Positions 1,737 to 30,078 of a DNA stretch of 64,000 nucleotides are shown here, one piece after another. The notes under the pieces are model-generated. The model did no database searches. It was not told the origin of the DNA and saw only the letters and a list, made by a program, of their open reading frames with translations. Position 1 is the first letter of the stretch. Every line of letters starts with the position of its first letter. A program made the position numbers and the translations under genes. This DNA comes from Hexactinellida sp. DTS-2022 (Eukaryota > Porifera > Hexactinellida), in NCBI GenBank assembly GCA_028753945.1, contig JAPNXP010000018.1:124001-188000 (forward strand), written 5' to 3'.

Positions 1737-1929
1737 TAGGAAAAAAATTCCTTTGAAAACAATTTAATCTGTCAGTATTACATTATTACTACATCAGATA
1801 TTCTAAATACGTATTACATTTGCGATTATGCAATAATGAGGTTAATTTAGCATAAATATTTTGTCTCACAGACCAATATTCCATATCCATATACAATATA
1901 TAAGTAAACTCGTATACAGTCACTATTCA

Positions 1930-2721
1930 ATGGGTTGTCGTCATTCAAAATGTCATACGAACACCACACCAACATCAAAAGAACTGACACATAATGACGT
2001 TATAACCACATGCCATACGGACATTACGGTCGCTATGGTTACGGAGACACCTGATGCTAACTCTCATAAACATTTGACACCAAAACAACAGGTCGCAAAT
2101 TTTGTCGAATCTGCTTTAAAAAGTTACCTACCGGACTACACGTTTTGTCACACCTTAACTAAGGGCCATAATACCATGGCACTACCAAATTCCGACAAGA
2201 AGAGATTCGTAATGGAAGTAGCGAGAGACCCCACTATATCATTGGCCCCTGATCAGACCGGAACCAAACTGTCATACGGGCTGCTGCGAACTAAGTACAC
2301 ACTGTATGTTGGGACTAAATCCGATAAATTCATAAAATTTGTATATCAATGGACTCAAGACGGAAAGACTTACGTCACGAGTCCCTACTCCTTAACTAGC
2401 ACGATATCGGGAGTCACGGTCCCCTGTGCCACAGTCGACATAACTAATGCCCTGGGGCCCAAGCATGCGCATGACCCTGTCGCGGCGATAAAACTCGATC
2501 TGGGAAAGTTAAACTCAGTTAATAGCTCTACTCCTGGCAACCATAACTTGAACGGACCAGACTTTGAGTGGGTTTACGAGGGGCCCTTTGGTGTCGATAT
2601 GAGTATTTATTCGAATTACCCACGTAGATTGTACTGGGAGGACGTTAGTGGGGATAGTGGGGAGGTTAAACTGATTGACAAAGTGGGTATGGGAGTGAAG
2701 GTTAAACTCAAGGACTTGTGA
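1930..2721 (+). CDS. MGC-anchored paralogue, gene B (263 aa, intronless)
   Basis: Function not recognised. An ATG lies 69 bases upstream in frame, but 1930 is chosen because it yields MGCRHSK, the lipid-anchor type start shared with genes A and D. Residues 1-50 are Thr/His-rich and probably flexible. From about 50 to 263 comes the domain shared with gene C: a helix-like VANFVESALKSY, then PDQTGT (107-112), FVYQW (137-141), TSPY (150-153), DFEW (211-214), LYW (234-236). The pattern of alternating hydrophobics suggests a beta-rich fold. Predicted cytosolic, membrane-tethered. It is divergently oriented relative to gene A. The whole domain in one exon contrasts with gene A, which has an intron. 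Confident it is a real gene because three independent copies conserve the same landmarks. Confidence 0.8.
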   Translation: MGCRHSKCHTNTTPTSKELTHNDVITTCHTDITVAMVTETPDANSHKHLTPKQQVANFVESALKSYLPDYTFCHTLTKGHNTMALPNSDKKRFVMEVARDPTISLAPDQTGTKLSYGLLRTKYTLYVGTKSDKFIKFVYQWTQDGKTYVTSPYSLTSTISGVTVPCATVDITNALGPKHAHDPVAAIKLDLGKLNSVNSSTPGNHNLNGPDFEWVYEGPFGVDMSIYSNYPRRLYWEDVSGDSGEVKLIDKVGMGVKVKLKDL

Positions 2722-3866: not shown

Positions 3867-4541
3867 CTAAGTCCACTGCTTTATAGCTTTTACTTTCAGT
3901 TTCAGTTTATCTCCGTTCCCTCCTATCAGTTTAACCCCGCTTTGAGTGCCGTCTAACTTGCCCCAGTAGAGTTCACATTCCAACGCTCCAATTGTGAAGT
4001 CATGCAGAGACGCCCCCTCTCTGACCCATTCGAAATCTGTTCCATCAAATTTGTTATTTGCATCTCCTCCACCCGAACTTATCTGTTCCAGCTTAGCAAC
4101 AATAGTGTGCACTGGGAATTTCCCGTTTATAGCCATTGTAATATCGATAGGTTTAGCACACTTTACATTTATCCCTTCCCCCATTCCCTTCAAGAAGAAG
4201 GGACTCGTTATCCACGTAATCTCTAGAGATTCCCATTGGTACAAGAACTTAACACTTGTGCCCTTAGTCCCGATATAGAGAACGCTTTTTGAGTTGAGTT
4301 CTTTGTAGGAAACTAATTCAGTACCGGTCTGGTCTGGTTCTATTCGTGTTGGGTTTATTTCATTGTTAGTAGCGATTAGTTCATACACGTTAGGTAGTAT
4401 TGAAATAAAATGATTGAATTTGTAATCCTTCAAATAATATTCCTTTAGAGCACTCTCTACATTTTCAGCTACTGTTATAGGACTTGGCTTAGGATATGTT
4501 TTGAGTGAAAACTCAGTATATTCAACCTCTTTGCTTGCCAT
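3867..4541 (-). CDS. Paralogue without lipid-anchor start, gene C (224 aa)
   Basis: Same unrecognised domain as genes A and B. Starts MASKEVEY, so the MGC anchor of A, B and D is absent and the protein is probably soluble. Shared landmarks in order: VAENVESALKEYYL, EPDQTGTE, FLYQW, TSPF, DFEW, ELYW, and a basic Lys-rich end. The stop at 3867 lies about 25 bases from the hairpin element at 3478..3842, so the 3' UTR probably includes or abuts it. Single exon. Convergent with gene B. Reading frames on the opposite strand in the same place are shadows. Sure that it is a gene; function unknown. Confidence 0.8.
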   Translation of the reverse strand: MASKEVEYTEFSLKTYPKPSPITVAENVESALKEYYLKDYKFNHFISILPNVYELIATNNEINPTRIEPDQTGTELVSYKELNSKSVLYIGTKGTSVKFLYQWESLEITWITSPFFLKGMGEGINVKCAKPIDITMAINGKFPVHTIVAKLEQISSGGGDANNKFDGTDFEWVREGASLHDFTIGALECELYWGKLDGTQSGVKLIGGNGDKLKLKVKAIKQWT

Positions 4542-5275
4542 TAGTTAGTTATATGTCTCTACCAAATCTCTATTTATAAGTGTAATAGTGCCTATTGTCA
4601 TACGATATCCTTAATTAAATCAAGTTAAATGTTAATATAATATGATTAATTGGCTAATTAGCTATCTTATACAGGTAGTATTACCAATGGGCATATCATA
4701 ATGTAGTTCATTTTATCAGATGGATATATCAACCGTTATATTTCATTTAATACTATACATACCCAACTTATATCATACAAAACACTGACTTGCCATTTTT
4801 TCAATTTTCTGCCTGTTAATTTTCAATGCAAAGTCCTTATTTATAAACCCATTTCCATAGGGTTACTTTAACTTACTTATGTATCGGCCAACACCTATCA
4901 TTATACAAACTGGCTTCGTAAAGGTGAATATTCAAAGTTAAAAAATTACTTTTGCCAGTGCCTGAAAATTATGTTAGAAAAGTTGTCCTTAATATGTTAC
5001 AATTATAATTAAATGATGTTTTGCAATTTGTTTTGGTGCATTGTTTAATTTCAATATTTTTAAAAAAATTGCATTCAGTTATGATGCTTATTTTATGAAA
5101 TATTGTTATAAAGTTGAAGATTTTTATATCTTAGTACGGGCGTAGCACGGCCCAATCAGTTTGTATAATTAAACTTAATTCTCACGCAACCCGATGTCAA
5201 AGTATAGGGGTATGTCAACTAGTTTATTACAAATTTATAAATGTCATTATTAAGCAATAAAATTATACAAACAAG
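4542..5275. other. Intergenic: nothing recognised
   Basis: AT-rich gap between genes C and D, both minus strand. It should hold the gene C promoter and the gene D 3' UTR; no element ends or gene-like ORF seen. Confidence 0.4.
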
Positions 5276-9700: not shown

Positions 9701-11715
9701 AAATGGAAAACAGAGGACACCACAGACAAAAATGTCCGCAAGTACGATACAATTCCGAGGGAAATTTGGACCCCCGAAATGTGGCAAGTTGATAAACAAA
9801 TGAAGCGCGATCGCGAAAGGTCTCGAAAGAGAAGTTACACATTTGCGTTCGGTCAGTTGAAAGAGGTTCTAGCTATCGATCAGAACAAGTTACGACATGT
9901 GGACATCATAAAGCTAGCTAAGGAAACTATATTAAAACTATCTGGTCAGCTAAGTGACTCTAATAAGACTGATATTCTCATTGAAGGGCACAATGCATTA
10001 TTGCACCAACCTGACCCCACTCAAGAGTTGGACACCAAAAGAACTAAGTTGTGTGATACTGATACCCCCTGCCAATTGGTAGAGGAGGGTAATTTGATTA
10101 ACTTCAGTTCTCTCAATAGTGATGGGTTCTTTTATGGAGATACAGATGATCTGCTTGTTGACTTAATATGAGGCTTTTGTTGTTGTTGTTGTTGTTGTTG
10201 TGAAATTCCCTTAAGCACCCCTACTGGACAATTAATACGTATATTTTCTATTTACACCCATTTTGTTGACAGATAATATTTTGGTAATTTACATTACTAA
10301 CAATTGTATCAATGAATAAAGACATTCTTTATTAATATTTGGTTGTTATGAACAAGGTTGTCCCGGACACTATATTAAAACTGTGGCTCGCAATTTTAGC
10401 AAACCTAGTAATAGATAATATTATTGATATTATCTATTTTCGATTTTATACAGTAGACTCTGTTAATAGGAACACCAGGGGACCGTCTTAATATGTTCGT
10501 ATTATCCGGAATTCGTATTAACCGGAGTCACTTGCATGCATTTGTTAGGGTAGGGGAATTAAACCTTGTATACTCCTTAACCGATATTTACCTTATCCGT
10601 GTTCCTATTAATGAGACTACTGTAGTGTATTATACAGCCATTTGTAAATACGCTCCTAATCCTTGTCTGATACAATGTTCATACGCCTAAATCACAAATT
10701 AATGTCACGATATGGAGAAGTTTCCAAATTTTCGCGCTCCTTAAAAATATTTCTAAAAATCATACTCCAAAAGGAGCGTCTCGCTCTCCTGGATAATTCC
10801 TTGCTGTATTCATATATAGTAGAGTCTCCTTATATTCCTATTAACGAGAGTCTCTTTATATTCCTATTAACGAGGTTCTACTGTATATTCCTACGAACGA
10901 GGTTCTACTGTATATTCCTATTAACGAGAGTCTACTGTATATTCCTATTAACGAGAGTCTACTGTATATTCCTATTAACGAGACTACTGTATATTCCTAT
11001 TAACGAGACTACTGTATATTCCTATTAACGAGACTACTGTATATTCCTATTAACAATAGTCTACTGTATATTCCTATAACGAGGTTCTACTGTATATACC
11101 GTATTTATTCGAATAGTAGGCTAGGCGATTATTGTTTTTAGGCCATTTTCTGACCAATAATTTTTGTGACTTTTCGAGAATATCACATGTTGATATAATT
11201 AATTTAGTATAGTCGGTTGATAATCGTATTGCGACTAATATTAGATGAATAAATTTACTCAGGGTACCGATAGTAAATTTGTATTTGCTAATTTGGGGGG
11301 GGCTATTATTGGAGGTAGGCGATTATTCGAATAGGGGCTACTATAGAGTAGTATATACGGTATATATGTATATGCCCCTTTACCTGCATGTACAATCTCT
11401 ATGTAACGCGTGCAACAGGTACCAGTTGGACACCCGAGCGAGATAGAAGAGATTTTCGACTCTATTTCCTACTCCAAGGGCGCCTCTATAATCCGCATGC
11501 TGCATGACTTCATCGGAGACGAGGCCTTCAGGAGAGGCATGCATTCCTACCTAACCAAACACGCGTATAGGAACACACAAACAGAAGATCTGTGGAGGAG
11601 TCTGGAGGAGGCAAGCGGGAAACCTATTCAGAAGATTATGAGCACATTCACGAGACAGATGGGATTCCCTGTAATAAAGGTCTCTTCTCACATGGAGGGT
11701 AACACCAGGTATAGG

Positions 11716-11759
<44 letters not shown>

Positions 11760-14700
11760 CATTTACCGTATTTCCCCGAATAAGCGCCGGGTCAATAAAA
11801 ATGACATTGGTATGATAAAATTTATACACATTAGTTGATCACTGTATTGTAATTCCATTGATTTTGGTGGAAACCATTAGAACCGACCTAAATATTATAT
11901 TCTGGATTTTTCACAAATATTTCAGGATAATTTTGGACCACGAAAACAATAAGCTTATTCGGGGAAATAAGTAGTTATTTTTGTTATTTGTTATTTGTTA
12001 TTGTTTGTTTGTTTGTTTCATTTATTTAGTTCTGTTGTTGTTGTTTGTTTGTTTGTTTGTTATATGTGTTATTTGTTGTTGTATATGTTGTTGTTGTTGT
12101 TGTTATACCAATTGTTACCCTGTAGAGTACTCAAAGTCCAACAGTCTAAATTCAACGCAGACGGATCCCCTCCAGACCCTGCATACCAATGGATAGTACC
12201 GGTAACGATAGGAACGGCTACGGACCCTAACAAACATTCCTTCCTCCTGGAGTCAGCTGACACTGAGATTAGACTGACGGGCGTAGCGGCCAATGAGTGC
12301 ATATCCCTTAATCCGGGCTACAGGGGATTCTATAGGTACTATGCTGGAAATGGTAGAATAACCATAATAGGAAATACAGTAGATGTCGGTTTTAAGAACA
12401 TGTCGGATATAAGAACACTATGTTGGGAAACGGTTGCCATATAGCCTGTATAATTTATGTCGGTTATAAGCACATTAAGTGCAGTTCTCGACGATGTGTT
12501 TATAACCGGCATCCACTGTACAGTCGACTCCGCTTAATAGAGCCACCGGTTAATAGATTTCTCCGCTTAATCGGGTCAAAATTTCACAGGATTTATAGGA
12601 CGGAATTACATTTTAGCTTAAAAAATTTTTGGTTAATAGATTTCTCCGCTTAATCGGGTCAAAGCAACCTTGTCCCGAGGTGACTCTATTAAGCGGAGTC
12701 GACTGTATTTCGAATTTTCAGTGTTGCTACACAATGGATATGAGAAAAACCCGACTTTAATCCATTGTCCAACACTACAAAAATGAAAGTCTTACTACAG
12801 TCGAAATCGGGTTTTTTTGCCCCCCAAATGCACGACAAAAGGAGGCAAAAAAAAACAATAAGCAAAAAAACCCGATGGAAAACACATTAAGATATCACAT
12901 TTTTGCACGACAAAAGGAGGCAAAAAAACCCAATAAGCAAAAAAACCCGTGGCAAAAAACCCCGATTTCGACTGTATTTCCTATTTTGAAAAATCGAACC
13001 ATTTCCGCCTTACCCCTCTACAGAGTGCAGTACTCAGCCGATATGCTAAAGAATATTCTAGAACAAGTTAAGCAACTGAAGCTAACTCCGTCAGACAGAT
13101 TGGGACTACACAACGACTTGTACGCTCAGGTATGTGCGATAGTTTGTATACTTCGGTGCATGGGTTAAAACTCGGTTTTCTAACCATAGGAAAATCTTTA
13201 GCCGGATTGTCCAACAAAATTAAATTAAAGTTGCATCCTCTATGATGAGTTTGCATAAATGGGTCTCCAAGGTATTCGACAGGAAAATAGTATCGCGAAA
13301 TGGAATAGCTTTACCCCTAGGGTTAGATTATACACAAGTACACTCAAAGCTCTCAGATACGGGCACCTAAAGCCAAGCTAAATTCCCTGTTTGGATTCCG
13401 TACAAATTTTATCTCCTTCAAATAATGCCGCATCATTAAATTATAACGATCATGTATTATGGCTACAAGTTAGGGTGCCATAAATTTTACCTTCATAATA
13501 AAGTGCCGGCCCAGAAATCCTAGATAAACCCCTGGGCATCATGCTAAATTGCTCAGAAAAGAGTTACCTTAGTTCGATAGGCCGGTATGGCAATGCCATT
13601 GTGTTACTGTGTGTACTGAATCAGCTTTCATCCAAACTTAATTTCCCGCGCGCCTAGATTAGTTTGAGCTCACTCACACGTGCCTTAATCACTCAATTTG
13701 TATTAAGTCTATGGGAGCATCTTTCGATTTTAAAGATTTTCGATCTTTCAAAGAAAATTTTGATCAAATTTTGATCAATTTTGATCAATTTGATCAAGTA
13801 AATTTTGATCAAATTTTGAACAATTTGATCAAGTAAATTTTGATCAAATTTTGATCAAAACTTGTGCTGTATAGGCTGAGGCCGGGCCCTGGCAGTGGCG
13901 TAGGGAGGGGGGGGGGTCCTAGGACCCCCCCAATCTGTCAGACTGATTTTTTTTTCATTAGCAATAAAAAAACAGAGGACTACTCATGTTTCAAAAGCAC
14001 CTCAAAAAAACATACATAGGGTCTACTTAATAGTACTTGATTACTGTCTGTTAATTATCATGTTTATTATTCTATAATACACATTTGTTAATGGGTAGAG
14101 ATTACTGCAATAGAGTTTCCCGTACCGCAAATCGGTGTTTTGTTAAAGTAATTTTTAAAAATCGCTGCGTTACTGTCTGCTGCATAGCAATACCACTGTG
14201 TTACTGTCTGCTGTATAGGCTAAGGCGGGCATAATCCCTACCACCTACCTGCTGGACACAATAGAGTCTATGAGACACGAGACTCTGTACACTGTGTGGA
14301 GAGCCATAGCCGGGTCTGTTGCCGCTATTAACAGACTCATGTCACACACTCAGCACCAGGAGAGGTAAGTGGTGTTGTTGTTGTTATAGTCAAGTCTGCT
14401 TATTATTGTGAGCAAGTTTTCGTTTGCTTGATATGAAAACTTTTTGTTATGAACAAGCCCTATGGTCCCAATTTAACAACTTACATAGGTTTGTATTAAG
14501 TTTAGTTCGCTTATTATAAAGTCCCTCTAATACGAACACAATTTTTGGTCCCTTGAATGTTCATAATAAAAGAACCTGACTATACTATGTTGTTATCATT
14601 ATCATGTTGTTGTTGTTGCTATTATTATCTTATTATCATATTATCATGTTGTTGTTGTTGTTGTTGTGTAGCTACGAGAGGTTCGGAAGAGAGGTGTTCC

Positions 14701-17351: not shown

Positions 17352-20300
17352 CTAATAAGTTGTAATGTCAATAGAATACTCAGCAGCTGTTTGCAAGAAT
17401 AGCTTGTATGCTTCTTCATCTGGTTCCTCGAGGTCAGTTACTCTCAGTGTCTCCAGCTGTGTTACTGTTGGTATTAGGTGTATCAGAGGGACACAGGATA
17501 GAGAAGTGAGATCAGCTTCCATTACCTCTAACTTCCTAAAAGTAGGATGATATGCCAGACCTGCACACAGAGATTCTAATCCTGTGTCATAGAGACTGAC
17601 AAACCAGAAATTCAATGCAACTAATAACTTCAGATTATTCCCTATTATACTCCAATCACTGGGGTCCTCAGCTGGTGGAGATATTTCACTTAGCTTTAAC
17701 TCAACTACTTTAGTGCATAATGATAACACATTCAGGAATATATTGCAACTCCTTAAACCAGAGGAATCCAAAGTATTTAACTTCACAGCTCTCAGTGTAC
17801 GTCTGTTATCAATAATTAGCAGAAGCAGATAAACATAGAGATTGCTGTAATCTGGTATACGCGCAGATCTTGGAAGATCTTCAATCTGTAGATAAGTCAG
17901 ACTAGATAGTTTGGGTAATGCAGTTAACTGAGAATAGCTTTCGAATTGAATTTCTTGTAAGTTTAAGAAGTTAGGTAGCATAGCTCTGAGATACAAATCA
18001 TATTTCTTAGGAAAGTTATTGAGGTGCAAAACTCGCAATTGTGTCGCCTGACATAAGCTTGGTAACAAAATTTCATAATTAATTGGAGGGAGAGATTTCT
18101 TCAAATAATACTTATCTTCATACAGATCAGGAAGAACTATACAGTCTAGAGCTGTCAATTGATTGGCTAATGCTTCAAGGAATTCATTTGAGAGATGAGT
18201 GTTCGTTAGGTTAATACAAGAAAGCTTTTGATTGGTTGTTGGAGAGAATAACTCGACAGCTGTAATATCCGACATATCACACTCTGATAGGTTAAAACTA
18301 ATTTTAGTATCAAACCTGAATTCAGTATCTCTAATAAAGTTAGTATACTCTAGGACTGTAGTAGAATCTTTATAATAGAAGGAGATAACTAAATACTTAA
18401 CAAAGCAAATTCTCATTCCCTCCAACAAACTCTTAAATTGGATTGGATTGATGGTTCTGGTGGGGATATGAATCAGTTGGATTTCAGAAATAAGTTTGAG
18501 AGACTTTAGGAAACAGAACCACTCGTTAGGAGACATTTCTGTAAAGTATAAATAGAGTGGAAATGGTAAGAATTGTGAATAATGAGGAAAGCGGCTGGCA
18601 ACTGATACTGAATCTGTTTCGAACAAAATAGAATTTAAGGATAAGGTTCGCCTGGAGATGGAGAAAGTACATTGGCTTGTTATATTCAGCCCTTAAACGC
18701 TTTCGAATTATCTATTGTTTAAGACAAAGTTTGACTCTCTAGCTTATATACTTCCCGACTTACAGCAAGGTATGTGAATATGGAACTGAATGACAAATGA
18801 TTGACCACAACATTAATTGAAAATTATTCATTACTCGAGTCATAACTGAAATTTGGGTTATTATAAATGCGATGTTAAAGTCGCTATAGTTAGTACAAAG
18901 TAAATGCTTGGGGGCGATAGAGAGCATAATATGATCAAATGTTTACTTTTCACACTACGTGGGTGATCAGTCTAAAATTTTCAGGAATGTTTCATCATCC
19001 TGAAAATTCCGACTGATCACCCACGTAGTGTGAAAAGTAAACATTTGATCATATTATGCTCTCTATCGCCCCCAAGCATTTACTTTGTACTAACTATAGC
19101 GACTTTAACATCGCATTTATAATAACCCAAATTTCAGTTATGACTCGAGTAATGAATAATTTTCAATTAATGTTGTGGTCAATCATTTGTCATTCAGTTC
19201 CATATTCACATACCTTGCTGTAAGTCGGGAAGTATATAAGCTAGAGAGTCAAACTTTGTCTTAAACAATAGATAATTCGAAAGCGTATAAGGGCTGAATA
19301 TAACAAGCCAATGTACTTTCTCCATCTCCAGGCGAACCTTAGCCTTAATTGAATATAAATTTTGGTGAATTCTGTTAAACCAGTATGATCAAAATAAAAG
19401 GAATATTCTTCCAGGTTTAGTTGACAACTCAACGGCATACCAATCATCCGCATTGGTTGCGGCGTTAGGTACCTGTACATGACGGAGAGAACAGCAGCAG
19501 CTCTGTCGGACAGGAGGCCACACAGGAACCTGACTAGCATCCGGAAGAGGGAGAAGTGGGCAGTGGAGTGGGAGATGTAGCGGATGCTGAGACACTGCTT
19601 GGTCCAGGAATGGTTGCTTAACCAGTGGGCAGCTGTGAACTCCTGCATCGTCAGGTGCGCAAAGGTCCACACTTTCTTGATGAGGCCTACTGCCTCCTTT
19701 CTGTAGTGTTCGTGCGCCAGACCGAGGCAATGGCTGGGGTATTCCTCCTGTCCCATAACCAGAGGGACATTCTCCTCAGACACGAGGTCTCTGTTGGCTA
19801 CGCCGAGGAACGCTATGAACCCAATTCGCTTCAAACAGGCCTGTATGTCGGGATGGAGGTCTGACAGTGCTGCGACTCGGGAGAACTCGTGCAGTCCCAT
19901 TCTCGACACTTCTCTTCGGACCAGGTAGAGGGTCAGTTCGCTATACAGCCTGGTTAGCGTGGTGATGGAGGCAGAGTCTTCTCCTTTCAGCAGAGCCGCG
20001 AATAGTGACGCGTTGACCGGGATCAGAGACAGCTGTTTCATCTCGTCGTGTCGCTCCATTAATTCCCAACAGGCCTTCAGTTTGACTACGTTTGTAATTT
20101 GCTTCTTAAAGTATCGGTCTCTGTTCTCCGGGGAGAATCCGAGCACTTGGTAGTGTCTGTCTATCTTGAGTTCGTGGCTGGTGGATACGTCAGTCCAGGC
20201 CCCGGGTCTGCTCGTTAGTATTATCGTTGATTTTGTCAGAGATTGGCGTGTGAGCAACAGACCCAGTAATGATTTCCCGAACGGTACCTTTCTTGTGAAC

Positions 20301-21460
20301 TCATCGAGTCCGTCTATTATCAACAAGAGTCCTTGTCCACTCGATTCGTTCAAATGCTTTGCTAAGTCCAATGTCCAACTGGGTCCCACGGGCAATCCCA
20401 GACACAGCCACTGTTGGATGAACTCGGAATCCACTTTCCTGTCCTCTTCGTACCGTGTGGACTCCATAGCGTGCCAGTCCGAGTTGCGACATGGAACGGA
20501 GATTGTGTACTGAATGCCAGTCAACTCATTGCAGCTAAACCTCAGGGCCGTTCGCTTCGCTAGGAATGTTTTGCCGCACCCTGGGTTACCTATCAGGCAC
20601 CAAATTTCAGGTTTTATAGGTTCATACGTTTGCAATTCATTTGTGAAGTCGACAGGTGTTATTTTAACTTCCTTATTAGCGATTGACCGGAGATATGCAA
20701 TCTCATTATACGTTGTCTCGTCCTCCATGTTAATAGGTCTCGGCTTTTCTTTCAGGATTGTGAGCTCAATGTATACTTCTGCTAGATTAACTGTTTCGTC
20801 ATCTCCCAACATTTGCTGCACGGTTCCATATTGGATTTGTAAGAAGTCTTTCAATTGCTTTTCCCATTTTTCCATCTCCTTAGCTTGGTTATTGACTTCC
20901 CTTTTAAATTTACTCTCAAACTCTCCCTCCTCCATATCTGCGAAAACTCTAGTGTACTCATTCAGTTTCGTCACGAGGTCAAACCTCTCGATGCTCTCAA
21001 ATATCTCACTCAACTGGCCAAGGTCCTTGTGGACGTATCCTTTCTCCAACAACTTATTTAGCGTCATTTCAAATCCTACATTGTCCGCCGCCTCGTTAGT
21101 AACGGCTATGTAGATTAGCTGCCATTGCGCCCTCTTTACTTCTGACTTTAGGAGTTCGATTAGTGTTTTAATTGTCAGTTTATCTTCCCCAAACTCTGCT
21201 TCGCTATGTGCGGATACACAGAGCCACGCTACCTTGCATGCTAGTGCTGTCAACTCAGGCCTAACGGTCTGCAGAGCTAGATAGAAACGGTATGGGTTGT
21301 GTTGGTTCCATTTCTTCAGTGCGAATAGGAAATGCGTTCCTTCGGTCACTTCTTCACACAATCTTTCCGGGATTCCAATCACGTTTTGAATTTGCAGAAT
21401 TTCAGCTGTGCTTAGCTTATTCGAAAGTTCCGTTAACGTTTTCAATTCAGCAAATGCCAT
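17352..21460 (-). CDS. NLR receptor: DED-like x2, NACHT, LRR (2 exons, 1140 aa)
   Basis: Predicted cytosolic STAND ATPase sensor. Exon 1 21460..19338, exon 2 18651..17352; 3423 nt, in phase (AG|GTTCGC donor, CTCCAG|GCG acceptor). Start: ATG at 21460 (MAFAELK) is used, since the open frame above it has no ATG. Residues about 1-75 and 95-175 look like death-fold/DED helices; the second (LNKLLEKGYVHKDLGQLSEI...DLVTKLNEY) is the more convincing. NACHT: Walker A GNPGCGKT at 291-298, Walker B LLLIIDGLDEF at 378-388, then TSRPGAW sensor-like motif and the FAHLTMQEFTAAHWLS helix near 600-615 typical of NACHT winged-helix ends. Exon 2 encodes about 430 residues with irregular leucine-rich repeats (LRVLHLNNF, LTYLQIEDL, LRAVKLNTL, LVALNFWFV, FRKLEVMEA). 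The intron is a giant palindrome (separate entry). Without splicing the protein would end soon after NACHT, lacking LRRs. Confident on NACHT-LRR; moderate on tandem DED and on the exact splice pair. Confidence 0.87.
18652..19337 (-). repeat. Palindromic intron of the NLR gene (arms ~330 bp)
   Basis: The left arm from about 18646 and the right arm to about 19343 are near-identical inverted copies meeting at a ~12-base loop near 18990..19002. Checked blocks match exactly over tens of bases ('tgatcaaatgtttacttttc', 'ctatagcgactttaacatcg', 'tcaatgtactttctcc' region); the few differences seen include one base near 18697/19291 and a small block by the loop. The arms include both splice sites, so donor GTTCGCCTGGAG faces acceptor CTCCAGGCGAAC. 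No ORF, no TACAGT ends. Confidence 0.9.
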
Positions 21461-22058: not shown

Positions 22059-22203
22059 TGTTTTGACAAAAATGGTTCCCCCTACAAAATTGGTCCCCCA
22101 GGACCAATTTTTAGGGGGGACTGTTTTTGTCAAATTAAATCGTTATTTGACAAAATTGGTCCGGGGGGACCAATTTTGTAGGGGCACCATTTTTGTTAAA
22201 ACA
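22059..22203. mobile_element. Non-autonomous Ginger relative (145 bp)
   Basis: Ends TGTTTTGACAAAAATGG and CCATTTTTGTTAAAACA, with internal 'ggaccaattttgtagggg' inverted motifs identical in kind to the ends of the element at 26507..30078. Flanked by AGAG on both sides (22055..22058 and 22204..22207), a 4-bp target duplication. Confidence 0.85.
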
Positions 22204-26506: not shown

Positions 26507-29500
26507 TGTTTTGACAAAAATGGTCCCCCCGGACCATTTTTGTCAAATAACAATTTGTTTTGACAAAAATGGTCCCCCCTACAAAATTGGTCCCCCCAGA
26601 TCAATTTTGTCAAATAAACATTTATTTTGACAAAAACAGTCCCCACTACAAAATTGGTCCCCCCGGACCAATTTTGTCAAATATCCATGGTTTGACAAAA
26701 ATGGTCCCCCCCCAGGATCTGTCAAACATTATTTAAAGCCAAGTTTCGGTTTTTTTAACACCTCCTGTGTTTCTGCCTATCTATTTACATTAGCTGTCGG
26801 AGTTTTCCAGCCACCCCTCCCTTGTGAGCGGTAACTTACGTAACGTTCTATGCGTCCAATTTTGTAAGATTGATTTGATATACTTTAATTAACAAAAATT
26901 GATTTTCTACTAAAATTTGTTAGCTCGAAGAGAACTTTCCTACTTTAACGTTCATTCCTAATGAATTCTCCAGAATATGAAGCTATCTCCAACTACATCA
27001 GCTTAAAATCATACCCTGTTCCCTCTACAAAGGACCAGAAGAGGATGATTCGTAAAAAGGCTGCTAATTACGGGCTTGAATCTGGTAAATTGATTCGACC
27101 TTCCCAGGGGAATCGTTTATTAGTAATAAGAGACAGTGAGTTGGAAGACATCCTCAAAGAAATCCACGATAACTCTGGACACCAATGTCCTAGATATTCT
27201 TATAAAATATCAAAAGACCGGTACTATTGGCCAAGCATGTACAGAGACATTGAAACGTATATCAATATTTGTATGCGCTGTCAGAAGAATCAACCAAGTT
27301 TGAAAGCGCCAATTAATCCCTTAAAACCTCTACCTATTATCACCAAAGTTTGGTATCGTGTCGGCATGGACTTAACAGGACCACTCATCGATTCTAATGG
27401 TTACAGATACATCTTGACAATGATAGATCACTTTACAAGATGGATTGAAACCCGTGCACTACGCTCGAAAGAAGCTGCTGAAGTAGCCAGAGGTATACAC
27501 TCGATATATTGTAGACAAGGGGCACCAGTCCAAATCATTAGCGATAACGGGCGTGAATTTACGAATATAATATCCAAATCTTTGCATGAAGCTTATAATT
27601 GTAAGCTTATCTTCTCCACTCCCTACCATCCTCAAACAAACGGGTTAGTCGAGGCGAGTCACAAGACTATTAAAGGATCTCTAGTCAAATCTTTGGACGA
27701 AAAAAACGAAAACTGGTCAAATTTCCTTGAAGAGATAACATTCTCAATCAATATCAGGCCAAGAGCTACTACATCTTTTTCGGCTTTTGAGCTCATGCAT
27801 GGTTCACGAAAACCTCGGCTTCCTCTCCAAGCGAAAAATTTAACACATCAGTATCCAGAAGACACACCTTTAGCTGAGTGGTCTGGAGATGAGCAGATTG
27901 AAGAATTGATTGATTACGTACAAGAGGCCCAAGAGTCTAATAGCAAAATAGCCGGAGAACATCTTACTCATTCACAAACACTTATTAAAAAGCAATACGA
28001 TAAGAGATTAAACCCGGTCGCTTTTAGTCAACTTGAAAAGGGAGATGATGTTCTGATCGAAAATATTAATCGAAGCAAGCGCAAGAAAGGAGGGAAGCTA
28101 CAAGATAAATGGGTCGGTCCTTATCCAATTACAAAAGTGAATCGTGCTACGGTTCAGATCCTTCGAAATGAATCTATCCAACGCATAAAACGATCAAAAG
28201 TAAAACTTCTGAAGAGACCAAACAGTGTTACAGAAACTCCACCTAGCAAACACCAGCGTCTGAATTCCCTAACTGAAGATGATTCTTTCGATGAAAATAT
28301 CAACATAGCATCATCTCCTTTTAGTGGTGTCGAAGAATCGATTTTTCAGACCAACGTCACAAGAAAGACAAGCGAAGAAGTATTCGAGTTTCTTAACTCC
28401 AAGAAATGTCAGATAATAGATTCCATAATAACAAAGACTCCACTATCAAAACTCCATCACGAACTTGATAAAAGATTGGACCTGTCTTTCCGTGAACTAT
28501 TCGACTGGCGACATGAGCATTTTCCACCAACTGAATTTCCGGAAATGAGATTAATGGAATTAGATACAAGTCAGGAGATGGTTGAGATATTATGTCAATG
28601 GTACTTAGATGCACACAGGATCAAATTGCCCTATTACCACTCTACTGACGACGATTTCGAATTTTCTAAACACTGGAAACAAAAAGGTGTGGATTATTCT
28701 ACAAAAGTACTGCATCCAGTATTGAGCGAGCTACTGATACACTCACCAGATAATCATCCAACTGTATTGAACAATCCTATTCCTATAGCTTCAGAAGTTT
28801 CTATGGAGGACTCTTGTGTTACTTGGGGTGGACATTGTGATGGAATTGAATTGGTAAATACCTGTCCAGTTGACAATATCATTACTTTGCTTAGTTTACA
28901 CAAAGTAACAATTTTTAATAGTTTTGACCAAATACACTATATTCCTAATTTACAACTCCAGAAAACCTTTTCTCTAATACAGACACGTCAGTTTGATGAA
29001 CTAAGGGTGTGGATAGCTCAAATGCTGGAAATTCCTCTAGCAAACTCCAACTACAATCTCATAGGTTATGAAGGCCGTATAGTTGAACTCTTGTGTAAAA
29101 AATTATCTCTATGCTCAGATAATTACAGGATCACATTTCAATGCTGGGCGTGTTGCTATGAGTCTGAGAAGATGCTTAATCTCACATCCTTGACAACATT
29201 CAATTCCAACTGTCAAACCTCTCTCGATAATAAAATTAATTCAAGTTTCAACTGCTTAAAATGTCGAGATCCTGGCGCCAATATCGAGAGATTGTCATTA
29301 GGGTTCACTGAACTATCGCCTATCATGATTTTTGAAGTTGGGCATCTTGCTGATTTAATTCAAGTGATAGATATTACAGACTCAATTTCAATATCACACA
29401 GAGATGAAATGTTACACTATACACTCATCGGCTTCACTATCCATGTCGGGATACATTTTTGTATGAGGGTAAAACTCGATGATGGATGGTACTCTTACGA

Positions 29501-30078
29501 TGGCATGGAAAGGCCGAAACTACACAAAGTCAAGGACAAAGTTGTGAAAATTATAGGCCGGATTAATTGCATTTATTATGTCCTAAGTAACATTTCGAAA
29601 TTGTAATTGTAATAGGTAATCTGTAATAGGACAAGATATTAGGTTGCTCCTGGAGGGAGCAGGCAAGGTATCAACTACATTAAACTGATTATATATAACA
29701 ATTCCATCTACATATTACTTTTAGCACATCCCTGGAGGGAGGCCTTATCAGCTTGGACGGTGTACTTCGTCTGGGCCTCCAATTTTTGAACATGTACAGT
29801 CGGAACTCGTAATGTGAACAAGGAGAAAAATCAATGATTTAATAAATTTACTGCCTGATATGTTGTCTAGTCGCAACTACAACTAATTCGAAACGAAATA
29901 GTTGTCAGGAAGCCATTTCGTAGGGGGGACCATTTTTGTCAAACCATGGATATTTGACAAAATTGGTCCCCCCGGACCAATTTTGTAGGGGGGGACTGTT
30001 TTTGTCAAAATGAATCGTTATTTGACAAAAATGGTCCGGGGGGACCAATTTTGTAGGGGGACCATTTTTGTCAAAACA
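26507..30078 (+). mobile_element. Ginger-type DNA transposon, whole-looking (3572 bp)
   Basis: Ends TGTTTTGACAAAAATGG and CCATTTTTGTCAAAACA, bounded by CCCT on both sides (26503..26506 and 30079..30082), a 4-bp target duplication as in Ginger elements. Both ends carry arrays of 'ttgacaaaaatggtcccccc' and 'ggaccaattttgtcaaat' subterminal repeats (26507..26730 and 29918..30078). It holds one long integrase gene and no reverse transcriptase, capsid or polymerase. The open frame, clean ends and target duplication suggest recent insertion. Confidence 0.88.
26961..29606 (+). CDS. Ginger integrase/transposase with C-terminal USP-like protease domain (881 aa)
   Basis: Cut-and-paste transposase of the Ginger group, whose core is shared with LTR-element integrases. 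N-terminal zinc-binding HHCC: H69, H74, C104, C107. Catalytic DDE: D137 (GMDLTGP), D195 (IISDNG), E231 (LVEASHK), spacing DD35E. A GPY/F module follows (KWVGPYPI at 383-390). Beyond a linker, residues about 610-880 look like a ubiquitin-specific protease (C19): NTCPVDNI with candidate Cys 635 resembles the USP Cys box; CWACC (728-732) and CLKC (765-768) could bind zinc; HYTLIGFTIHVGIHF...DGWYSYDGM (819-849) resembles the His box, with H832 and D847 candidates. Single exon, starts at the first ATG. The USP call rests on motif pattern; the integrase call is firm. Confidence 0.88.
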   Translation: MNSPEYEAISNYISLKSYPVPSTKDQKRMIRKKAANYGLESGKLIRPSQGNRLLVIRDSELEDILKEIHDNSGHQCPRYSYKISKDRYYWPSMYRDIETYINICMRCQKNQPSLKAPINPLKPLPIITKVWYRVGMDLTGPLIDSNGYRYILTMIDHFTRWIETRALRSKEAAEVARGIHSIYCRQGAPVQIISDNGREFTNIISKSLHEAYNCKLIFSTPYHPQTNGLVEASHKTIKGSLVKSLDEKNENWSNFLEEITFSINIRPRATTSFSAFELMHGSRKPRLPLQAKNLTHQYPEDTPLAEWSGDEQIEELIDYVQEAQESNSKIAGEHLTHSQTLIKKQYDKRLNPVAFSQLEKGDDVLIENINRSKRKKGGKLQDKWVGPYPITKVNRATVQILRNESIQRIKRSKVKLLKRPNSVTETPPSKHQRLNSLTEDDSFDENINIASSPFSGVEESIFQTNVTRKTSEEVFEFLNSKKCQIIDSIITKTPLSKLHHELDKRLDLSFRELFDWRHEHFPPTEFPEMRLMELDTSQEMVEILCQWYLDAHRIKLPYYHSTDDDFEFSKHWKQKGVDYSTKVLHPVLSELLIHSPDNHPTVLNNPIPIASEVSMEDSCVTWGGHCDGIELVNTCPVDNIITLLSLHKVTIFNSFDQIHYIPNLQLQKTFSLIQTRQFDELRVWIAQMLEIPLANSNYNLIGYEGRIVELLCKKLSLCSDNYRITFQCWACCYESEKMLNLTSLTTFNSNCQTSLDNKINSSFNCLKCRDPGANIERLSLGFTELSPIMIFEVGHLADLIQVIDITDSISISHRDEMLHYTLIGFTIHVGIHFCMRVKLDDGWYSYDGMERPKLHKVKDKVVKIIGRINCIYYVLSNISKL

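Follow-up and report, generated by a model that had tools for sequence, protein, structure and literature searches.

A recent palindromic TTAA transposon insertion, with splice-compatible tips, in a single-exon NLR gene of a hexactinellid sponge

Introduction

Can a transposon whose two ends mirror each other found an intron? The question is raised by a 64,000-nucleotide stretch of the genome of Hexactinellida sp. DTS-2022 (GCA_028753945.1, contig JAPNXP010000018.1, positions 124,001 to 188,000; hereafter the window), where a long palindrome interrupts the NACHT-LRR coding sequence of an NLR gene on the minus strand. The initial annotation took the palindrome to be the only intron of this gene. 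Our analysis identifies it as a non-autonomous TTAA transposon that recently entered a single-exon gene, and we think it probable that most transcripts are truncated at 739 residues, with precise removal of the element a minor outcome. The locus is a clean young example of a coding exon hit by a transposon whose tips are compatible with splicing; the empty site proves the insertion, and the case bears on whether a symmetric element could give rise to an intron. The features discussed are listed in Table 1.

Table 1. Features of the interrupted NLR gene and of the inserted element (positions in the window)
Feature	Position	Strand	Remarks
Interrupted NLR gene (weak DED match, NACHT, HD2, LRR)	17352..21460	-	ATG 21460, stop codon 17354-17352
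706-bp palindromic TTAA element	18639..19344	.	L009-L013 have identical boundaries; paralogue L052 shows the site unoccupied
TTAA target-site copy, 3' of the element (gene orientation)	18635..18638	.	
TTAA target-site copy, 5' of the element (gene orientation)	19345..19348	.	
5' arm in gene sense, TTAA included	19003..19348	-	
3' arm in gene sense, TTAA included	18635..18980	-	
22-nt loop separating the arms	18981..19002	-	In L011 and L013 inverted with respect to the ends
Proposed donor, AAG/GTTCGC	19336..19337	-	Weak: score 0.48, sixth among the 68 GTs of 18400-19700
Proposed acceptor, TTCTCCATCTCCAG/GCG	18652..18653	-	Top of 69 AGs in 18400-19700, crude score
Stronger arm-internal donor, AAG/GTATGT	19208..19213	-	Score 5.12; joined to 18652 retains the stop
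In-frame stop within the element	19241..19243	-	Limits the protein to 739 aa if unspliced or spliced from 19213

The palindrome and its empty site

The palindrome consists of two inverted arms of 346 nt each, 99% complementary and separated by a 22-nt spacer. The near-identical arms described in the initial annotation are thus confirmed to the base, as is its statement that they reach just past the proposed splice sites, in fact by 11 bp on each side. Two copies of TTAA bound the element proper, which has no coding capacity for a transposase; the stop-to-stop open reading frames (ORFs) of at least 150 aa merely enter it from the NLR exons. The RNA of 18600-19400 is predicted to fold with -627 kcal/mol, against a mean of -165 kcal/mol for 20 shuffled sequences (z -68), so that the long transcript hairpin suggested earlier holds as a prediction. 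Excision of 19337..18652 joins the ATG to the stop codon in 1140 codons, exactly as had been stated, and excision of the element with one TTAA gives a continuous frame of 1132 codons.

Pfam profiles match the window gene at NACHT (E=3e-19) and, below the curated cut-off, at DED (4.4e-05); its own C-terminal half has no Pfam match. The closest paralogue, L052 (C10:87700-91400), has an HD2 match at residues 602-715, also below the curated cut-off, and the insertion point corresponds to approximately its residue 705. This places the insertion close to where HD2 ends and before the LRRs. The model of the C-terminal half of L052 is an alternating strand-helix solenoid (mean predicted local distance difference test score 69, first 76 residues below 50), and it matches the LRRs of ribonuclease inhibitor, NLRP9 and NLRC4.

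The same paralogue has an empty site with a single TTAA: its sequence there is TTCAATTAAATTCTATTTTG, and that of the window is TTCAATTAA-element-TTAAATTCTATTTTG. The residues RLRRTLSL are missing exactly from all six paralogues that were fetched and aligned (L052-L057), and TTAA is present at the insertion site in four of them. A genome search with the NACHT part gave 65 rows, of which 50 (counted by hand) have a stop-free match within an open frame of 1000 aa or more; this count omits the window and the second piece of one gene, and the remaining rows are shorter, contain stops or are pieces. From the exact empty site, the absence of the eight residues in all six paralogues and the 50 open-frame relatives, we conclude by sequence comparison that these receptors are a family of single-exon genes, and that the window copy was intronless until its recent interruption. 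The earlier suggestion of a foldback element that came from outside and brought its own GT and AG at the tips is thereby borne out.

Two observations on the paralogues are added here. The LRR half of the window gene (17352-18651) differs from L052 by a nonsynonymous divergence (dN) of 0.120 and a synonymous divergence (dS) of 0.070, against a dN of 0.124 and a dS of 0.371 for the NACHT half; we read this contrast as domain exchange between paralogues, together with possible positive selection in the LRRs. Another NLR paralogue (L062:2226-3051) has an LRR part that partly matches the opposite strand, i.e., an internal inversion.

A family of TTAA elements

The genome of the window (G000, 112.4 Mb in 18 contigs) was searched for further copies of the arm, a check proposed in the initial annotation, and the 92 resulting rows were merged over strands and neighbouring pieces. 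The family occurs at no fewer than 39 sites, window copy included, which is a lower bound, as scoring covered 40 of the 261 candidates. Six of the scored sites hold full-length copies, namely the window copy and five others (L009-L013) that are 98-99% identical to it. Each measures 714 bp including the target copies, and they lie in different flanks. TTAA is found on both sides in five of these six young copies; in L013 one of the two target copies is intact and the other differs by one base. The termini read TTAA followed by GG[C/A]TAAGG. A search with the end pattern gave 27 matches (at most 3 mismatches), a looser pattern gave 86 (at most 2 mismatches), and the reversed control gave 0 in both cases.

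The element is a non-autonomous palindromic TTAA DNA transposon of the miniature inverted-repeat transposable element (MITE) or foldback type. Terminal inverted repeats and a target-site duplication recur across its copies, as in MITEs and other non-autonomous elements with such repeats, and the arms are homogenised within each copy, as in Foldback/Galileo elements. Because no transposase was found, it is the ends that suggest a Kolobok-like superfamily placement: Kolobok is defined by a TTAA target site and an RR terminus (PMC6004289; this and the other papers cited by accession are used in excerpt), and the ends here are GG. The Kolobok T2 MITEs of Xenopus share the TTAA target, the purine-purine start and a non-coding, non-autonomous nature (PMC6004289, excerpt). 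The window element differs from them in that the arms make up almost all of it, the T2 motif AGGRR is matched inexactly by GG[C/A]TAAGG, and no linked Kolobok transposase, an enzyme of the DDE/THAP kind, was found among the ORFs examined near the ends. With piggyBac and related TTAA MITEs it shares the TTAA target-site duplication; however, piggyBac is described as ending with CC[C/T]T (PMC2872659), and the element has GG after TTAA. The TTAA target also differs from the 7-bp target duplication of the P superfamily.

Two sets of ORFs adjacent to ends of the family were considered as an autonomous partner and rejected. At L031:5196-6935 there are two RAG1/Transib-like ORF pieces, with 145 scored matches in the genome; one ORF weakly matches 6pqn (E=7.3e-05), listed as a DNA-mediated transposase and presumably HzTransib. 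Three other fetched copies of this ORF are without the ends of the TTAA family, and L031 is read as a separate element into which a fragment of the family inserted. At L037:2542-5009 lie candidate transposase pieces without a convincing Pfam match, which we assume may be THAP9/P-like; one piece has 150 scored matches, and the distribution of these, judged by eye, does not track the ends of the element. A 2.76-kb relative (L016:1407-4168) has 259-bp arms, a second nested palindrome, and a non-coding interior with no ORF longer than 70 aa between the arms.

Two copies on contig C9 (L013 and L029) lie about 66 kb apart and have a common flank, ATTAAAGTTAAGGC; this is probably a local duplication that included the element.

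Concerted evolution of the arms

The arms were compared in 16 full copies, with pairwise figures for five reference copies. Within a copy the two arms differ by 0.6-3.5%, and between subfamilies 36-88 differing columns are mirrored in both arms versus 3-17 that affect one arm. In a tree of all 32 arms the groups correspond to subfamilies, and each group is starred. In the young subfamily, three mirrored substitutions set L012 and L013 apart from the others, one mirrored change is private to the window copy, and two copies carry the loop in inverted orientation (Table 1). We read this pattern as a sign of conversion and exchange between arms, either before the insertion or after it. Galileo elements are similar in having long arms that are more than 99% alike within a copy and about 7% divergent between copies (PMC2775673, Table 2, excerpt), and their middle segment also occurs in either orientation (PMC2775673); the present family differs in its TTAA target and its 22-nt middle. 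Such strong concerted evolution makes the family useful for studying recombination between arms.

Predicted splicing and products

Each tip of the element carries GT on one strand and a mirrored AG on the other, so that the spliceosome could in principle remove the element and leave 24 nt. This remnant of eight codons is open in two of the three phases, in either orientation.

Donors in 18400-19700 were scored with a matrix built from generic animal frequencies, and acceptors with a crude score. As a yardstick for donors we used the neighbouring M1 aminopeptidase gene, which also lies in the window, with exons placed by Pfam profile positions and the best-scoring GT taken near each exon end; the yardstick excludes two stretches, one near 11649, where the profile does not fix the exon end, and one near 12444, an ORF without a domain match. 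The five donors of this gene score 6.52, 5.98, 4.91, 4.44 and 3.99, compared with 0.48 for the tip donor of the NLR gene. An exonic GT at 19472 scores 2.37 on the same matrix, and the arm-internal donor at 19213, 124 nt inside the tip donor, reaches 5.12. Precise splicing from 19337 to 18652, as the initial annotation proposed, is not supported by these values.

The unspliced frame ends after 739 aa. Splicing from 19213 to 18652 would also give an LRR-less product of 739 aa, the stop lying 27 nt ahead of the junction. Such a shortened product is probably likelier than precise splicing, because the weak tip donor is situated in the predicted hairpin stem and competes with an internal donor of normal strength. 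Among the literature consulted for palindromic MITEs or other transposons that are spliced out, no direct precedent appeared.

We therefore propose the following course of events. The 706-bp transposon inserted recently into the coding sequence of a single-exon gene, close to where HD2 ends and before the LRRs, with tips that in principle permit its removal, in either orientation and in two of three phases, at the cost of eight added codons. In most transcripts the reading frame would then probably end at the stop within the element, the product being a 739-residue NACHT protein that lacks LRRs, and precise removal, if it occurs, would be minor. Loss of the window gene could be tolerated, since there are some 50 open paralogues.

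Is the family an introner?

The initial annotation had suggested an introner-like intron gain. Forty loci with copies or ends of the family were fetched (L009-L048, of which L014 and L038 are one place); both ends could be defined, exactly or approximately, in 19 of them and in the window, giving 20 measurable copies. The longest stop-to-stop frames at the 20 empty sites are 1161 aa in the window, 132 aa at L018, 103 aa at L024 and at most 89 aa at the other 17. A frame of at least 300 aa was thus found at 1 of 20 copies; of the 281 other TTAA sites in these loci, counting the window's NLR stretch, 16 lie in such a frame. This is no excess of copies in long open frames, where open frames alone are visible and introns are not, and the family consequently does not look like an introner.

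Nor is the end geometry conserved, as two older subfamilies (L017-L019 and L028/L042-L044), whose left end, where kept, reads (C)TAA followed by GTATCC, would by eye leave 23 nt and not 24. The insertion at L018 splits the 132-aa frame, of which an uninterrupted 98% copy exists at C3:2344262-2344657. Because this frame has 49 matches in the genome, it is read as a mobile-element ORF and not as a host gene; the case supports the mode of insertion.

Introners that carry both splice sites, symmetric introns of fungi (PMC8469720), and hairpin introners, reported for Amoebophrya (PMC7789003), are already in print, and from these excerpts the window element would join a known kind. Introners are described as enriched in genes in 161 of 175 genomes, and those of the Aureococcus type bring a donor as well as an acceptor with them and add codons, 12 bp in all (PMC9860276). 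The window element resembles the latter in being able to supply both splice sites and in adding codons, eight aa here against four there (PMC9860276). It differs in that its splice sites are predicted from sequence and its copies are not concentrated in long open frames. The internally symmetrical stwintrons of the Hypoxylaceae have similarly mirror-symmetric ends; unlike the present element, they have inverted repeats of 45-55 nt with about 73% identity, lack flanking duplications, and have RNA-supported splicing (PMC8469720, excerpt).

Competing explanations

Several points weigh against the course of events proposed above. The donor matrix rests on generic frequencies, and choosing the best GT per exon end favours high scores in the yardstick; at the sixth M1 exon end, near 11649, no candidate exceeds 1.16. 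The acceptor ranks first in the region, the 24-nt remnant is in frame, as a usable intron requires, and among 2013 GT/AG combinations tested, just 108 (5%) restore the frame. No mobilising enzyme was found in the ORFs beside the ends at L031 and L037 or in the interior of L016, and the insertion is too young for gene decay to be informative; for the same reason dN/dS says nothing about gene function. The acceptor and the frame restoration, together with a remnant that stays open, whatever the orientation, in two of three phases and the published introners that behave in this way (PMC9860276), would also be expected if the element were a new intron, with tip-to-tip splicing predominant and a 1140-aa receptor bearing eight extra residues near the HD2-LRR border. 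We regard this as a real but clearly less probable outcome, given a weak donor beside a strong competitor and both sites within a predicted 346-bp stem; moreover, the 24-nt geometry by itself restores the frame in two of three phases, so that frame restoration is weak evidence for splicing or selection. Somewhat more doubtful still is the idea of a self-hiding cassette, a symmetric transposon spliceable in either orientation, because the same tip reads as donor on one strand and as acceptor on the other, which leaves eight codons behind and has recently given an immune receptor its only intron.

That the whole family is an introner, with ends adapted for splicing and spread chiefly by landing in exons, is improbable. 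The mirror-symmetric ends of the young subfamily do give GT and AG in both orientations, and a similar remnant of 7+13+4 nt can be read by eye at the ends of L022 and L024; the distribution over open frames and the 23-nt remnants of the two older subfamilies argue against it, and the element is present in none of the five other shortened or split NLR relatives fetched (L058-L062). The weak tip donor likewise gives no support to an introner-like gain. An older intron duplicated in inverted orientation, the other origin raised in the initial annotation, would account for splice-like sites just inside both ends of the palindrome; it is rejected as having virtually no likelihood in view of the single-exon paralogues with an exact empty site and at least 38 relatives elsewhere in the genome. 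Palindromes are also a known class of assembly artefact. A foldback chimera can be set aside with the same assurance, because the six 714-bp copies lie in different flanks and the paralogue has the empty site, and the TTAA duplication and the existence of several subfamilies likewise oppose it. A recent transposon insertion with predominantly truncated products is thus the reading we prefer.

Other features of the window

Upstream of the NLR gene, 22080-22200 holds a further short palindromic stretch of the CAAAATTGGTCC type. An 885-aa open frame at 26949-29606 has integrase zinc-binding and rve domains and is a retroelement. Two ORFs at 1846-2721 (+) and 3867-4544 (-) look by eye like members of one unknown family, the former having no Pfam match.
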